A DNA stretch of 34,819 bases from the NCBI GenBank assembly GCA_012730015.1, contig JAAYBT010000118.1, positions 1 to 34,819 of the forward strand, written 5' to 3'. Every line of letters starts with the position of its first letter. The first letter of the stretch is position 1. The notes beneath the pieces are model-generated. The model was not told the DNA's origin. It was given only the letters and a program-made list of their open reading frames with translations, and made no database searches. This DNA comes from Clostridiaceae bacterium (GTDB taxonomy: Bacteria; Bacillota; Clostridia; Acetivibrionales; DTU013). This document shows positions 4,743 to 34,819 of this stretch, piece after piece. A program made the translations under genes and the position numbers.

Positions 4743-6275
4743 CTATTTCAACAGGGATTCCCCTGTCATCTCTGCTGGCTTATCGATTCCCAGCAATTCA
4801 AGCATTGTCGGCGCAAGATCCGCAAGACGGCCCTCCTTCAATTGCTTGCCCTCCAGGCCGATACCAATAAGAGGTACCAGATTCGTAGTATGGGCAGTAA
4901 ATGCACCTCTGGTCTCATAATCGAGCATCTGCTCCGCATTACCATGATCTGCCGTTATCAGTGCCACTCCATTTTTCGCCTGAATCGCCTTCACAATCCT
5001 GCCAACACATTCATCCACGGCCTCAACCGCCGCCTTTGCAGCATCAAAGAAGCCGGTATGTCCTACCATGTCGCAGTTGGCGAAGTTGAGCACTATTACA
5101 TCATATTTCCCGGAATCTATTCTCCTGAGCACTTCTTCAGTCACTTCATATGCGCTCATTTCCGGCTTAAGATCATAGGTGGCTACCTTTGGCGAAGGGA
5201 TTAGTGCGCGATCCTCGCCCTCATACATGGCCTCCACTCCGCCGTTAAAAAAGAATGTAACATGAGCATACTTCTCCGTCTCTGCAATTCTCAGCTGCTT
5301 CAAGCCATTTCGACTTATAATTTCACCGAAGGTGTTTGTAAGGCTTTCAGGCTTAAATGCAATCACTACATTAGGAATGGTTTTGTCGTATTGGGTCATG
5401 CACACATAATACAGCGGGAAAAATCCCCTTTGCCTGTCAAAGCCTGAAAACTCACGATCCACAAAGGTCCTGGTAATCTCCCTTGCCCTATCCGGCCTGA
5501 AATTATAGAAAATTATTGAGTCATTACTTCCAATTGTGGCGACAGGCTTGCCGTCTTCCATAATAACTGTGGGCTTTATGAACTCATCGAGCTCATTTCG
5601 TCCATAAGATTCGGTCACCGCTACGGCTGCGTTTGCAGCACTGAGACCTTTGCCCAAAACCATTGCATTGTAGGCTTGTTCAACCCTTTCCCAGCGGTTG
5701 TCTCTGTCCATTGCGTAGTATCTGCCCATAACAGTGGCTATCTTACCCACTCCTATTTCGTCCAGCTTGGCTTCGAGCTCCTCCACAAAGCCAATACCGC
5801 TATCGGGAGGCACATCTCTGCCATCAAAGAAGCAGTGTACAAAAACATCCTTCAATCCCTGCTTCTTTGCCAACTCTACCAAAGCATAAAGGTGTGTATT
5901 ATGGCTATGTACCCCGCCATCCGAAAGCAGGCCCATGAGGTGCAGCTTTGAATTATTAGCTTTGCAGTTTTCAATCGCTTTCAAAAATTCTTCTTTCTCA
6001 AAGAAGTCCCCGTCCTCAATAGATTTTGTGATACGGGTGAGCTCCTGATAGACAATCCTCCCGGCACCAATATTGGTATGCCCAACCTCAGAATTGCCCA
6101 TCTGGCCGGTTGGCAGTCCCACATCCATTCCACTTGTTCGAATGACGGTGTTGGGATAATCCTTCATAAAGCCGTCCAAATTTGGCTTGTTCGACGCATA
6201 TACAGCGTTACCCTCAGGGTTACTATTTATGCCGAATCCATCAAGTATAATCAGTGCTATCAACTTATTCTTCAT
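4743..6275 (-). CDS. gpmI: 2,3-bisphosphoglycerate-independent phosphoglycerate mutase
   Basis: [46 protein letters not shown] track starts at 6284; the RBS AGGAG fits the ATG at 6275 (MKNKLIALI) better. Confidence 0.96.
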
Positions 6276-29148: not shown

Positions 29149-29464
29149 TTGTGCATGTGCATTTTCGCACCAGCGAAAAGCTTGCACGCACCTAAATTCC
29201 GCCGGAGGCGTATAATAGCCTCAAATAGCCTTTCCTTATAATGATGCGCCTGCTCCAGCATCATGTCCTTGACCTCTCTAAGTCTAATGTACCATTTCGT
29301 CCCAAACAGTCTTTTTTATTACCTTTTACCTTTATTAACATCCAATTGTATACCACCTTATGGTAAGCAATGTTATGCTGATCTCGGTAAAATCTCGGTA
29401 AAAGCCCCCGACGTTTCATGCAACGTTTCGTAATAAATGGGGGTTCCTATTGCGAAAATGAGTA

Positions 29465-29618
29465 GACCAACGCCGCTTTTGGACTAGCGGAGCCCCCCTT
29501 CCTTGGCGGCGCTTGCCGCCCGGTGAAGGAATGTGGTGCCTGCTCGCGCTCCTGCTGTCGATGGTATAAGGCTGGGTGACTTTCCCCTGGCACCCTTGCG
29601 CTGACTGCTTTGTTATGT
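29465..29618 (-). repeat. attC-like site A (distal-most; R' side degenerate or truncated)
   Basis: R''/L'' side ACATAAC AAA GCAGTCAGCGCAAGGGTGCCAGGG is clearly homologous to sites C, D and F; no convincing R' box, GTTGGTC is the best candidate. Confidence 0.5.
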
Positions 29619-29733
29619 AAAGTACCGCCCACCCTCCGGCCGCACGGCAAGGCCAAGGCTGGAGCCCCTTTTCTGTTCATATTAATTTATATAATATTCG
29701 TTGATATTTTCACCGCACCAAATTGAAATTCAA

Positions 29734-30189
29734 TTAGAAATAATGCTCCATTAATCTGTACACCCATTCCGGCACAGTAGCATTTTCCTTATAATCATAC
29801 ATTGGATAGTAAGGTTTGATATCTATTATTGGAGTTGAGTTAATTGCATCCAGCCCCTTTACAATCAGTGTATCATTTTTTAACGACATGATTTGAACTG
29901 CTGTTATTCCAATTTGATTTGGCCTATCCTTCCCTCTTTGAGAAAAGATGCCTACTAAAGGCATATCTTCTCTGTTTTGCGGCTTGCGCTGTATATGTTT
30001 ATCTCTTTCAAAATGTGCTTTATCTAAATAATAAATAATAATTGCATGAGAAAAATCATCTAAACCTTTTAGGCCACCTGAGTATTCTTCTTCTAATATG
30101 ATTTTTGATACATCCTCACCCCAAGTAGTGTCCTTTCTATTTTCTATTTCGTTACTCACGTAACCAATCGGATTTAATGATATAGTCAT
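29734..30189 (-). CDS. TrmO/TsaA-like tRNA methyltransferase-family protein (cassette gene)
   Basis: ISLNPIGYVSNEIENRKDTTWG...GIFSQRGKDRPNQIGITAVQIMS...DIKPYYPMYD. Confidence 0.88.
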   Translation of the reverse strand: MTISLNPIGYVSNEIENRKDTTWGEDVSKIILEEEYSGGLKGLDDFSHAIIIYYLDKAHFERDKHIQRKPQNREDMPLVGIFSQRGKDRPNQIGITAVQIMSLKNDTLIVKGLDAINSTPIIDIKPYYPMYDYKENATVPEWVYRLMEHYF

Positions 30190-30316
30190 TATTCAATCTC
30201 CTTTACAAATTCCTCTTTATATAATATTTACTTTATACGTGGCGCATCCTTTTTACAGAGCGCTTGTTATTCGCCCGACGGCCGGAAGCCCGGGCGACGT
30301 CGATGGACTACATTTC

Positions 30317-30452
30317 GCAGAACGTGTTCGCACTCACGACATCCTTGAACCGGACCTCAGAGCCCTTCTCCTTAGCGGAGCTCCGCTCCCGGTGAGACGG
30401 TGTGGCAGACATGACCCGTGAGCACGCCCGAAGCGTGAAAATATTGTTCTCT
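30317..30452 (-). repeat. attC-like site B
   Basis: R'' AGAGAAC, R' GTTCTGC(GAAAT); L-box pairing weak. Confidence 0.6.
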
Positions 30453-30593
30453 GATGTGAAGGGCTCTGCAAAGCCTAGCCGCCATGGACGGCGGCGCCCT
30501 TAAATAACTTTGAAAAACCACTTACTACATCATTTATAAAGATTACGACCACAATACTATCACTGTATATGTACTCTTATAATAAAGCGAAGG

Positions 30594-31046
30594 TTACCTA
30601 TCTGTCTGTTCTGTCATAAGTCCCCATCTAAAACCAAATTTGTCTATCAAACTACCTACACAGGAACTGTATGTCGTACTACGCAAAGGATAGATTATCG
30701 TACCTTCTTCTGATAAAATTCTATATGCTTGCTTAACCTCTTCTGCTGTATCAAATGTAATAGTCAAAAATATGGAAGTAGCTTTAGAATATTCTTGTTC
30801 CATTTCATCAGCAAGCATAAACCTCTGTCCTCCAATATATCCCTCTGAATGATATACGAATTTCTTTTGTTCCTCTGATAATTCAATATTCCAATCATGT
30901 TTGTCTGCATCACTATAATGCAATATATGACTGATTTTCAAATCAAAAGCTTTTTGATAAAAGCAAATCGCTTCTTCGCATCTTCCTTGAAAATGCAATG
31001 TAGGTGTAACAATCATCATAATCCCCTCCGAAAAATATATAATCAA
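30594..31046 (-). CDS. VOC superfamily / PhnB-like protein (cassette gene; likely start MMIVTPTLHF near 31019)
   Basis: TPTLHFQGRCEEAICFYQKAFDLKI...FGFRWGLMTEQ. Confidence 0.88.
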   Translation of the reverse strand: MIIYFSEGIMMIVTPTLHFQGRCEEAICFYQKAFDLKISHILHYSDADKHDWNIELSEEQKKFVYHSEGYIGGQRFMLADEMEQEYSKATSIFLTITFDTAEEVKQAYRILSEEGTIIYPLRSTTYSSCVGSLIDKFGFRWGLMTEQTDR

Positions 31047-31143
31047 TATTCCGCCTTATACAGCAATCGTGCATAGCAACCTTACATAGATAGAACCCAT
31101 GCATATCGGGCCACGGATGGCGCGTCCTTTTGCCCTCCATTTC

Positions 31144-31306
31144 AGAGAACGTCCCGGTTTTACGACGCCGACGAACCGGACCAGCGGAGTCCCTGGCGGT
31201 GCTTGCACCCGGTGAAGGAATGTGGTGTGCTGTAGGGACAATTATTTCAGGAACCAAATCCGGGACTCAGACCATGCACACCCTTGCGCCGACTGCTTTG
31301 TTATGC
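31144..31306 (-). repeat. attC-like site C
   Basis: R'' GCATAAC AAA GCAGTCGGCGC; R' GTTCTCT(GAAAT); internal homology to A, D and F. Confidence 0.65.
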
Positions 31307-31367
31307 GCAGTACCATCCACCTTCCAGCCGCACGGCAAGGCCAAGGCTGGAATTCCTTATAACTAAA

Positions 31368-31640
31368 TCAATCCTCATAATGTCCTTTACACGAAATAAT
31401 CATCAAATTGTTTTTATCATCAAAAACGTACACCAACCTATGTTCTTCGTTAATCCGTCTGCTCCAAGCCTTTCGATACTTTAGTGGTTCAGGTTTCCCA
31501 ATACCTTTTGATAAGCCATTTCTTTCAATATCTTTCACAAGATCATTAATACGTTTGAGTATCTTTTTATCTTGAGTTTGCCACGATAAATAATCATCCC
31601 AGGATCTATCCGACCATATTTTATTCATCACTAACCTCAA
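31368..31640 (-). CDS. yoeB: YoeB/Txe-type mRNA interferase toxin (cassette gene)
   Basis: WSDRSWDDYLSWQTQDKKILKRINDLVKDIERNG...KPEPLKYRKAWSRRINEEHRLVYVFDD...CKGHYED. Confidence 0.95.
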   Translation of the reverse strand: MRLVMNKIWSDRSWDDYLSWQTQDKKILKRINDLVKDIERNGLSKGIGKPEPLKYRKAWSRRINEEHRLVYVFDDKNNLMIISCKGHYED

Positions 31641-31875
31641 TCAGTTCATGAACAGTTCCCTTTCCAGATGCAAGCTGTTCCATTGATCTGTCAATCATTG
31701 CAAGGTATTCTGCATTCCTCACTGCTTTTATCATTGAGTTGTATTCCTCTAGGCTTATTATTACTACATTCTTTTCATCTTTACGGGTAACAATTACTGT
31801 TTCACGATCATCAGTAACGCGATCACAATATTCCTTCAATTTATTTCTTATTGTTGAATAATTTACAGCCAACAT
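31621..31875 (-). CDS. yefM: YefM/Phd-type antitoxin (cassette gene)
   Basis: MLAVNYSTIRNKLKEYCDRVTDDRETVIVTRKDEKNVVIISLEEYNSM; overlaps yoeB. Confidence 0.95.
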   Translation of the reverse strand: MLAVNYSTIRNKLKEYCDRVTDDRETVIVTRKDEKNVVIISLEEYNSMIKAVRNAEYLAMIDRSMEQLASGKGTVHELIEVSDE

Positions 31876-31894
31876 ATCAAATATCTCCTTTCAC

Positions 31895-31926
31895 GTACGT
31901 ACAATATTATGTACAATATATTGTAC
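31895..31926. promoter_or_regulatory. Putative YefM-YoeB operator
   Basis: GTACGTACAATATTATGTACAATATATTGTAC: tandem and inverted GTACAATA arms, perfect GTACAATATATTGTAC palindrome, TGTACA core at 31910-31915. Confidence 0.65.
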
Positions 31927-32019
31927 CATTATTGCGCTTCATTTTCAAGAAATAATACACGTAGAGTGCATATTTTCGCCCGTGGTCGGAGACAGGGCGA
32001 CGTCGGTGGATGGTATTTC

Positions 32020-32238
32020 GCCTAACGTCTCGCAGTCGCGACGCCGATGAGCTGGACCCTCGAAACCCTTCTCCTTGGCGGTGCTTGCCACCTAGTATGT
32101 TGAGTGCGCTAGCACGAATTACCTTTACAACATACAAAGGAGCGAATCGGTGTGGTGCCTGCTCGCGCTCCTGCTGCCAATGGTATAAGATTGGATGTCA
32201 TTCTCCCTGGCACCCTTGCGCCGACTGCTTTGTTATGC
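32020..32238 (-). repeat. attC-like site D
   Basis: Gene strand GCATAAC AAA GCAGTCG[G]CG ... CGCGACTGC GAGAC GTTAGGC. Confidence 0.8.
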
Positions 32239-32383
32239 GTAGTGTTGCCCATCCTCCAGCCGCTCGGCGGAGTCAAAGCCGGATTTCCTTATTTATTCTT
32301 TTTTATTCTTTTTTCTTCTTTCAACATATATAAACATTACGCATCAATCTCGGTACAGAAAATGCTTATTTGCTTTGGTTTGA

Positions 32384-33114
32384 CTATTCATATTGAAATG
32401 GTACATAAGGTAAAACTGCCCATGTTATATCATCGGCTGAAATACTTCTTGGCTCTAATTGTCTGTAGCCAACAGTTGCGTTTTGACATGGATAAACAGC
32501 ACATTCTATACAGGTTTTATATTCTTTAGTTTGGAGACATTTCAATGGCTCGCACAACTCATTACCATCGCAATAACAATGACAGCCAGATGTATTACAT
32601 CCAGTGCAACGCATATTCCAATCGGGATTCCCATACACCGCAGTTAGATGTGGAATTAACATTTCTCTGAAATCTTCAGCAAGTCCTGTATAATGAACAC
32701 ACAAATCGCATCGGTGTCCGCATTTCCCATACACTGCATTTTCTTTTGGGAACGGTTTTCGATTAGGGTTTTTCTTGATTAAGACGAGTTTTTTTACTTC
32801 CTCTAAGGTTTTAAGGTTATCCACTCGTATCAAGAGCCATTTCCCATCATGAAGAGTGCGTTCTCTGTCATAAAGTTCTTGTATTTCTTTGGAGAATTCA
32901 TTACGCTGTGCATCAAATTTTTCTCGTTCTTTTTTACCGAGAATAAGCTGAAAATCATAGTGCTTCTCGTGTATATTAATAGAAAGAATGGTTTTTTTCC
33001 TTGACGAAACTTCAAGCAATCAATATCGTAATACTTGCCAGCTACTTCATCAAGTCGATATTTCCCACGCATAAATTTTACAGTTTCAAGCTTTACTTTA
33101 CCAAATTCGGTCAT
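32384..33114 (-). pseudogene. DUF3788/DUF3795-like cassette gene split by a -1 frameshift at an A7 run
   Basis: MTEFGKVKLETVKFMRGKYRLDEVAGKYYDIDCLKFRQGKK in one frame continues in the -1 frame as ...TILSINIHEKHYDFQLILGKKEREKF...GKCGHRCDLCVHYTG...C-rich tail. Confidence 0.65.
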
Positions 33115-33264
33115 TATTCTTCACCCCGAGCTAATATAAATTTTGAGTGCTACAGTTTCAGTCTGCTTAAATAAATTATCCATACTGCACAATATCATAC
33201 CAATACGCAGAGCACCTTTTTCGCCCGACGACGGAGTCCGGGCGACGTCGGTGGAATGCATTTC

Positions 33265-33449
33265 ATATAACGGTTTGCATTTGCGACGCCTGCCTGCTTA
33301 CAGGAAGGCGCTTATGCCCGGGTGCCCTCCGGGCGGGCTAATGCGGCGACCGACTCGGTTAGCGGGCGGGTGTGAGCAGGAATGACATCATGCCCTGCTC
33401 ACAACGCCATGCTACATGCTTTGCCCTTTATGCAAATGCGTTGTTATGT
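33265..33449 (-). repeat. attC-like site E
   Basis: Gene strand ACATAAC AAC GCATTTGC ... GCAAATGC AAACC GTTATAT; L-box sequence differs from D and F but stays complementary. Confidence 0.78.
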
Positions 33450-33497
33450 AAAGTTGCGCGCCCCTCGAAGCCAGAGATTGACAGGACGTCAGTCCCA

Positions 33498-34331
33498 TTA
33501 ATTCTTTGAGTTTAAGCTAAACCAATACACATTATACTCATATTCTTTAATAAATCCCAGTTTTTCAGCTAAGTTATAAGATGCTACATTATCTTTCATA
33601 CAGTCCCAATATGAATTAGCTCCAAGATTCATATGTGCTTTTTTTACCTCTTGTGCTACTAATTCGGCAAAACCCCTGCGTCGATAATCCTTTACTGTTT
33701 CAATACCTATTGTATATGTTGAACCTGCAATAAATCCTGTGTACGCAGTACTCACAATCCATTTATCTGTAGTAATACAGTACCCAACACCTTTAGATAA
33801 AAAATTAGTCTTTGTCCCCCAAAAACTTTCAATGATATTTAATAAAAACTCAATATTTTCATACTCTTTTGATTTTTCCAAAACATTACTTATTGACTGA
33901 AGATAGAAACCTTGTGGAACATGACTAACTTGATTAATGTTGAAATCTGACTTTTTGAATGTATAGACAATTTGTTTTCCAACACAAAGACCTCTAGACG
34001 AGAAAACATCTTCAATTGTCTGTTCCCATCCAGGGTCACCACTTACCTCAAAATCATTGAAGCCAACATCCTTGAGCCTTTGAACCAAATATCCATCTAT
34101 AAAAGAATTTAATCCACTGATAAATGTATTATTTTCACAATCTCCTATTAAATGAAAGCCTTCCATTCCTTTGCACCAAATTAAGGCTGTTATCGGATTA
34201 TCCTTACTATCAACAAAAATCCATCCAGGATTATTACCATCAACAACCGCAATAGCTTCTGGCCTAAACTTATTTTTTCGTTCAATTAAATCTTTGACTA
34301 AATAAAAATCTTCATTATGTAGCTCAATCAT
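33498..34331 (-). CDS. GNAT acetyltransferase, ZmaR/GNAT_acetyltran-like (cassette gene)
   Basis: AIAVVDGNNPGWIFVDSKDNPITALIWCKGMEGFHLIGDC...TIGIETVKDYRRRGFAELVAQEVKKAHMNLGANSYWDCMKDNVASYNLAEKLGF. Confidence 0.85.
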   Translation of the reverse strand: MIELHNEDFYLVKDLIERKNKFRPEAIAVVDGNNPGWIFVDSKDNPITALIWCKGMEGFHLIGDCENNTFISGLNSFIDGYLVQRLKDVGFNDFEVSGDPGWEQTIEDVFSSRGLCVGKQIVYTFKKSDFNINQVSHVPQGFYLQSISNVLEKSKEYENIEFLLNIIESFWGTKTNFLSKGVGYCITTDKWIVSTAYTGFIAGSTYTIGIETVKDYRRRGFAELVAQEVKKAHMNLGANSYWDCMKDNVASYNLAEKLGFIKEYEYNVYWFSLNSKN

Positions 34332-34398
34332 TATTCCTTACCCAGAGCCTTCCCTAGTATTCCCGTGCCCGGACGGCATGGTTTTTGCACTGTCTTTC

Positions 34399-34618
34399 TG
34401 CTAACGTCTCGCAGTCGCGAAGCCGATGAGCAGTGACCCGCGCTAACCCTTCTCCCTGGCGGTGCTTGCCACCTAGTATGTTGAGTGCGCTAGCACGAAT
34501 TACCTTTACAACATACAAAGGAGCGATTCGTTGTGGTGCCTGCTCGGGCTACTTCTGTTAATGGTATAAGGTCAGATGTCTTTCCCCAGGCACCCTTGCG
34601 CCGACTGCTTTGTTAGCT
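34399..34618 (-). repeat. attC-like site F
   Basis: Gene strand AGCTAAC AAA GCAGTCGGCG ... CGCGACTGC GAGAC GTTAGCA; R'' and R' changed together relative to D. Confidence 0.8.
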
Positions 34619-34665
34619 GATGTCGGACGGCCCATGACTCGGAGCAAGCCACGGATGGCTTGCCC

Positions 34666-34819
34666 TCAACTAGTCTCTATACCACTAAAAGCTTTGTTGC
34701 ACTCATCATTTATAGCAGTCTTCATTTTATCAATGAAATCATAGAACTCAGTACCTTTATATACCGAGCCTTCGATCTTATATGCATTTATTGGTATACC
34801 TTCAAATCTATCATTTTGA
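34666..34819 (-). CDS. C-terminal end of an unidentified cassette ORF (truncated by the window edge)
   Basis: Minus-strand translation NDRFEGIPINAYKIEGSVYKGTEFYDFIDKMKTAINDECNKAFSGIETS*, immediately upstream of attC F. Confidence 0.55.
   Translation of the reverse strand, partial: QNDRFEGIPINAYKIEGSVYKGTEFYDFIDKMKTAINDECNKAFSGIETS

Follow-up and report, generated by a model that had tools for sequence, protein, structure and literature searches.

We analysed a 34,819-nt stretch of DNA from a Clostridiaceae bacterium (hereafter the window), which is the entire contig C47 of a fragmented metagenome-assembled genome (MAG; 2.85 Mb, 278 contigs, 87% complete). The window very probably contains part of an integron-type array of gene cassettes, and in related Clostridia such sites appear to be served by a tyrosine recombinase lacking the additional (I2) domain of integron integrases (IntI). 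On all sequence evidence the system behaves as an integron, yet its recombinase lacks the feature by which integrons are defined today. Surveys recognise IntI by this additional domain (PMC2426708, PMC9668308), and its I2 helix has been described as required for cassette capture and as found in no protein other than IntI (PMC7790495).

The attC-like sites were located with a covariance model, R1, trained on 29 sites from other genomes, with the window and the host MAG excluded. R1 holds an internal 7-pair helix only, as RNAalifold missed the outer arms on the MAFFT alignment. The scan of the 34.8-kb window returned six matches, A–F, all on the minus strand (E 4e-17 to 4e-10), and no match besides these six:

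29418..29618, minus strand: attC-like site A, last of the array; R'' ACATAAC, R' GTTGCAT; R1 57.7 bits, E 5.1e-11
30317..30452, minus strand: attC-like site B; R'' AGAGAAC, R' GTTCTGC; L arms 3 bp; R1 79.3 bits, E 1.2e-15
31144..31306, minus strand: attC-like site C; R'' GCATAAC, R' GTTCTCT; L arms 2 bp; R1 86.3 bits, E 3.8e-17
32020..32238, minus strand: attC-like site D; R'' GCATAAC, L'' GCAGTC, L' GACTGC, R' GTTAGGC; intact, 7-bp L stem; R1 75 bits, E 1e-14
33265..33449, minus strand: attC-like site E; R'' ACATAAC, R' GTTATAT; intact, 8-bp L stem; R1 53.9 bits, E 3.3e-10
34399..34618, minus strand: attC-like site F; R'' AGCTAAC, R' GTTAGCA; intact, 7-bp L stem; R1 53.5 bits, E 4e-10

The common layout is R''(NNNNAAC)-L''-...-L'-R'(GTTNNNN), and in site D the arms can be read by eye in gene direction as GCATAAC-AAA-GCAGTC...GACTGC-GAGAC-GTTAGGC. 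An original prediction, made from the letters of the window alone, had described six related sites, each just 3' of its gene; the independently trained model matches exactly these six, and Pfam confirms the genes, which are on the minus strand. The R' heptamers had been read correctly for B–F, while R1 places that of site A at 29424-29418 (GTTGCAT) and not at 29465 (GTTGGTC).

We compared the start of each cassette with its own end over ~19 nt, using 27 cassettes from sixteen loci. Starts mirrored their own ends at 335 matches, against a permuted mean of 198 (p<1e-4), whereas the start of the next cassette gave 214 matches, no better than chance. Because each start mirrors its own end over ~19 nt, the mobile unit appears to be circular and, like integron cassettes, opened at G^TT. 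Within the window, cassettes 3 (16/19 nt) and 4 (GTTCTCT/AGAGAAC) are plain examples of this mirroring. In canonical integrons the own-end complementarity covers the 7-nt core, in contrast to the ~19 nt of the Clostridia cassettes. An L''/L' stem of at least 7 bp was found in 46 of 77 sites outside the training set, where 3.7 are expected if arms are permuted across sites and 19.2 if they are permuted within a locus. This test is independent of R1, since the L''/L' pairs are absent from the model, and it indicates that the L arms co-vary across sites.

In relatives, a tyrosine recombinase of ~350–400 aa stands at the array head on the cassette strand (genomes G001, locus L060; G002, locus L058, frameshifted; G019, G029, G034, G042, G044, G048, G054 and G060). 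G002 is Clostridiaceae bacterium AS22ysBPME_234, from the same GTDB family as the host. An attI-like core lies at most ~150 nt past the recombinase stop codon in 40 of the 46 loci with enough sequence (9.6 expected), as compared with 4 of 14 (2.7 expected) in IS91-type, Xer and IntI controls. The core is often preceded by ACGAAC/ACGACAT...GTTCG repeats, and a sequence-blind hairpin scan downstream of the recombinase gave 33 candidates versus 6.5 in shuffles. In the stretches taken from relatives, R1 detected as many as 12 sites per array, and all matches in integrase-bearing loci (88/88) lie on the integrase strand. G365, a complete genome in a single contig of 3.26 Mb, carries 35 R1 sites over ~65 kb after the integrase, so the system is no binning artefact; this array is of superintegron size (G365:C1:2085351-2149805; L121, L248–L250). 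The integron-like reading of the original prediction is thus sustained by covariance matches, by arm and boundary complementarity, and by arrays beside integrase and attI in relatives.

Pfam assigns SAM_4 (PF13495) and Phage_integrase (PF00589) to the recombinase. The nearest solved structure by sequence is VchIntIA (2A3V, 2.5e-36), which is also nearest by fold for the homologue on the IMG/VR contig L169 (4.7e-19). The alignment to 2A3V skips VchIntIA residues 171-238, opposite which the query has 25 residues, and the spacing from KDR to LRHSFA is 59 residues in the new group and 100 in IntI1. TIGR02249 scores of the new recombinases (211, 200 and 227 bits) fall below the cut-off of 265, IntI2 as positive control reaching 394 bits; neither the additional domain or I2 patch nor a TIGR02249 score over the cut-off, which define IntI, was found. 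In the tree, IntI forms a single group (100/98) outside the one that joins the new and the IS91-type recombinases (94/93). Most members carry an extra N-terminal domain of ~85 residues, whose likeness to HARP is sub-threshold (7 of 9 members, best E 0.0006; PDB profile match 4o66, E 0.42). In the AlphaFold model of L169 the catalytic part is good, and the N-terminal domain has a predicted local distance difference test score (pLDDT) <50. Of the properties of an integron, the system shows attI next to the integrase, attC sites with a folded structure and the arms R''/L''/L'/R', and a catalytic fold nearest to IntI; the mobile circle cut at G^TT is indicated indirectly, by the boundary complementarity.

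Among 390 genomes of the class, the integrase was found at E<=1e-55 in 20, about 5% of the Clostridia species sampled, and R1 sites in 31. Such sites occur in 16 of the 20 integrase genomes versus 15 of the 370 others (Fisher p 1e-16), and outside the genomes used for training the figures are 7 of 10 versus 15 of 370 (p 9e-8). Across the phylum as a whole, the integrase had matches at E<=1e-60 in 27 of 399 genomes, some of these matches being IS91-type. The same site type is present in named Clostridia MAGs (L040, L041, L042, L045); exact-pattern matches in Armatimonadetes and Terriglobia MAGs (L043, L044) were rejected as apparent chance matches, with no site or array nearby. Four genomes (G167, G292, G309, G318) have at least seven R1 sites each and no strong match to the new integrase or IntI; they may be CALIN-like (clusters of attC sites lacking integron-integrases) or possess a third integrase type. 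At four loci (L069, L070, L071, L064), an IS91-type transposase and a shorter homologous recombinase are interspersed with attC-like sites, an arrangement that could arise if the element inserts into arrays.

Two IMG/VR contigs carry the system, L169 and L168, the latter with a related integrase. On the metagenomic contig L169 (6914-14564), the integrase is intact at 341 aa and is accompanied by an attI-like core and by four R1 sites with weak scores; the first cassette there encodes a caspase-like protease, for which a defence-system model gave a match. On a Chryseobacterium plasmid (L127, NZ_CP041688.1, 4950-10759), an integrase homologue (38% over 90%) is followed by co-directional genes (Crp-like, RidA, metallophosphoesterase) with three near-identical 209-nt palindromes between them (arms AACGGCCAGCTCGGC...GCCGAGCTGGCCGTTA), a row that has the appearance of an attC-like array in Bacteroidota. 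R1 had no match in this plasmid or in class 1/2 integron plasmids and is therefore specific to this family of sites rather than a model of attC in general.

Several results weigh against an integron-type array in the window. The L''/L' arms are paired over 7–8 bp in D, E and F only and over 2–3 bp in A, B and C; DNA folding gives the same division, with pairing of the outer arms favoured in D, E and F alone and excess stability weak or none in A–C (site E has a fold z of -5.9). The predicted R''-L''-L'-R' layout stands, with paired L arms, for D, E and F, while A, B and C, whose L arms are unpaired, are probably decayed or hybrid sites. A search of the host MAG, at 87% completeness, with Phage_integrase, TIGR02249 and the new integrase yielded no IntI-like integrase, and 15 genomes of the class have R1 sites without a strong integrase match. 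Finally, we infer recombination by the array from sequence, and a single-strand mechanism by analogy.

R1 finds 11 attC-like sites on four contigs of the host MAG; sites of this type occur on C241, C68 and C246 as well as on C47, and an attI-like core (GTAGTTAGACGAAAT) lies on C241 ahead of the first cassette there. The six window sites fall within 5.2 kb, which formally makes the array a CALIN (two or more attC, <4 kb apart, with no intI close by); half of these sites are probably decaying, and the integrase is missing or lost in the MAG. The caution of the original prediction on this point was justified. The only integrase candidates in the MAG, none of which we retained, were XerD, another Xer-like gene and a degraded recombinase on C102, between a diaminopimelate dehydrogenase-like gene and serS. 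C241 (L023, right end) seems to run into C102 (L027, left end), which would place the array there beside the diaminopimelate dehydrogenase-like gene, the degraded tyrosine recombinase and serS. On C246 (L026, ~6160-6217, minus strand), a very compact attC-like site, GCATAAC-GTCTCAATTCCCGAAATTGATTCGGGAATTGAAAC-GTTCTCT, forms a near-perfect hairpin resembling the one beside attI in G001.

A canonical IntI, since lost or unassembled, might have built the arrays, the I2-less recombinase being a passenger. CALINs without intI are common (PMC9668308), and the 15 genomes with R1 sites and no strong match to the new integrase would fit such a history. However, none of 60 relatives and none of 22 array genomes, of which several are complete, had a TIGR02249 score over the cut-off, whereas the new recombinase stands at attI and at the array head in many families and co-occurs with attC. 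We consider this history very unlikely, and the IntI that the original prediction expected as partner gives way to the I2-less recombinase heading the relatives' arrays. It is rather unlikely, though far from negligible, that this recombinase uses the sites as double-stranded or cruciform DNA, as in Xer/dif and unlike IntI. Such use would agree with the absence of I2, which is tied to single-strand recombination (PMC7790495), and with complementarity reaching ~19 nt beyond R; against it, the arms co-vary while their sequence is free, a mark of structure recognition, and the sites retain the asymmetric spacers of attC within imperfect palindromes of 100–220 nt.

That the six sites are dispersed repeats, of miniature inverted-repeat transposable element or terminator families, lying between genes by chance is highly improbable. 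A true 45-nt repeat does occur within D and F, and the L arms of A–C are unpaired, but across many families the sites invariably follow the 3' ends of genes on the integrase strand, start at attI and divide units with mirrored ends; in an Rfam scan of the window no family reaches its gathering score. We give almost no weight to an IS91-like rolling-circle element as the agent that moved the window genes. IS91-type transposases and shorter homologous recombinases do reside inside some arrays, yet the open reading frame (ORF) list and Pfam scan show no IS91 transposase in the window array, the shorter recombinases have no N-terminal domain, form their own group in the tree and show an attI-like core not above chance, and the G^TT boundary complementarity disfavours this origin.

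An integron-type array served by an I2-less recombinase resembles the chromosomal integrons of Vibrio, Xanthomonas and Shewanella and the class 1–3 integrons in having a tyrosine integrase, attI, attC with R''L''L'R', one-gene co-oriented cassettes, toxin-antitoxin cassettes, attC likeness within a genome and a cut at G^TT. It differs from them in an integrase without the additional domain, with an extra N-terminal domain and co-directional with the cassettes, and in attC core complementarity extending ~19 nt past R with an interior conserved across Clostridia families. In Treponema, intI is likewise transcribed towards attI, in cassette direction (PMC3607928), so orientation alone is not new; Treponema intI is classed as patch-type in the literature and is set apart by that description. 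CALINs show what the host MAG shows, but the Clostridia relatives carry a partner integrase, which is not IntI. IntegronFinder 2.0 reported one complete Firmicute integron, in Limnochorda pilosa, and few CALINs, and described Firmicutes as nearly integron-free (PMC9024848); these belong to the same phylum and were found by a patch-based IntI search. IS91-associated and XerA/XerC/D recombinases also have a catalytic domain without I2, and the IS91 group an SPLD-type C terminus, but unlike the Clostridia integrase they have no N-terminal extra domain, attI core or cassette array. The literature searched, which did not cover subscription journals and preprints, yielded no paper describing an integron platform without I2.

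The window holds five complete cassettes and one truncated, each with one gene or a toxin-antitoxin pair on the same strand, as had been predicted; Pfam supports the genes of the five complete ones. The features, with the evidence for each, are as follows:

34666..34819, minus strand: 3' part of the gene of one more cassette, truncated where the contig stops; open ORF
33271..34404, minus strand: cassette 1 (GNAT acetyltransferase); R' positions
33498..34331, minus strand: GNAT acetyltransferase gene; PF12746 4.6e-36
32026..33270, minus strand: cassette 2 (DUF3788/DUF3795 gene); R' positions
33222..33244, minus strand: leader hairpin CGCCCG...CGGGCG at the 5' end of cassette 2; from the sequence, with the layout seen downstream of attI in relatives
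32384..33114, minus strand: DUF3788/DUF3795 gene, frameshifted (ORFs 32384-33019 and 32830-33114); PF12663 1.7e-13, PF12675 7.9e-11
31150..32025, minus strand: cassette 3 (toxin-antitoxin), 5' end mirroring its own 3' end at 16/19 nt; boundary test, inverted pair I2
31621..31875, minus strand: YefM/Phd-like antitoxin gene; PF02604 6.7e-15
31368..31640, minus strand: YoeB-like toxin gene; PF06769 2.9e-31
30323..31149, minus strand: cassette 4 (glyoxalase-like), 5' end GTTCTCT an exact match to its own R'' AGAGAAC; boundary test, inverted pair I7
30594..31046, minus strand: 3-demethylubiquinone-9 3-methyltransferase/glyoxalase-like gene; PF06983 4.4e-10, PF00903
29424..30322, minus strand: cassette 5 (TrmO), bounded by G^TT in site B and by the G in site A; R' positions
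29734..30189, minus strand: TrmO-like tRNA methyltransferase gene; PF01980 6e-27
34473..34517, minus strand: 45-nt palindromic insert within site F, identical to that in D
32092..32136, minus strand: 45-nt palindromic insert within site D, identical to that in F

The complete cassettes thus encode TrmO, glyoxalase-like, YoeB/YefM, DUF3788/3795 and GNAT proteins. The DUF3788/3795 frameshift lies near a T run at ~33,000, and the Pfam match begins at profile position 52/128; the split gene is either a pseudogene or an assembly error. The leader hairpin of cassette 2 is one form of a leader found in many cassettes. No family was assigned to the truncated ORF (34666..34819) by the Pfam scan, and sequence past 34819, where the contig ends, is unassembled in this MAG. 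Sites D and F are ~220 nt long because each contains the identical insert, an imperfect palindrome (TGTATGTTG...CAACATACTAG) with near-identical copies elsewhere in the host MAG (L024, 1547-1594 and 1616-1741; L025, 7294-7338), one of them outside any attC, near a topoisomerase-like gene. This palindrome is a small mobile repeat able to sit inside attC. Neighbours of the array on C47 include spoVAD, spoVAC, sigF and a spoIIAB-like kinase gene, which confirm the spoIIA-sigF and spoVA flanks named in the original prediction and make the host an endospore former.

In an array of this kind, the recombinase would capture circular cassettes at attI and would excise or shuffle them through folded attC, and transcription of the array would enter from the integrase side. 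The additional (I2) domain of IntI reads extrahelical bases of the attC hairpin. In SMARCAL1, HARP works on DNA that is branched or annealing, so that a role for the N-terminal, weakly HARP-like domain as reader of folded attC is plausible by analogy, if speculative; this domain might then do the job of I2 at the hairpin.

Integrons are probably far commoner in Clostridia than thought, and built in a second way, and reports from Firmicutes are probably sparse because the search tools used demand the patch. We regard as evenly balanced the broader proposal of a separate integron lineage, widespread in Bacillota and perhaps Bacteroidota, that recombines folded attC without I2, its N-terminal domain reading the DNA; structure-guided recombination would then have arisen twice or predate I2. 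An I2-less integron-type platform in ~5% of sampled Clostridia species, some with 35-cassette arrays, would enlarge the known cassette pool of anaerobes such as digester species and would explain why patch-based searches have missed such platforms. It would also supply the natural I2-less comparison that work on the evolution of I2 calls lacking.

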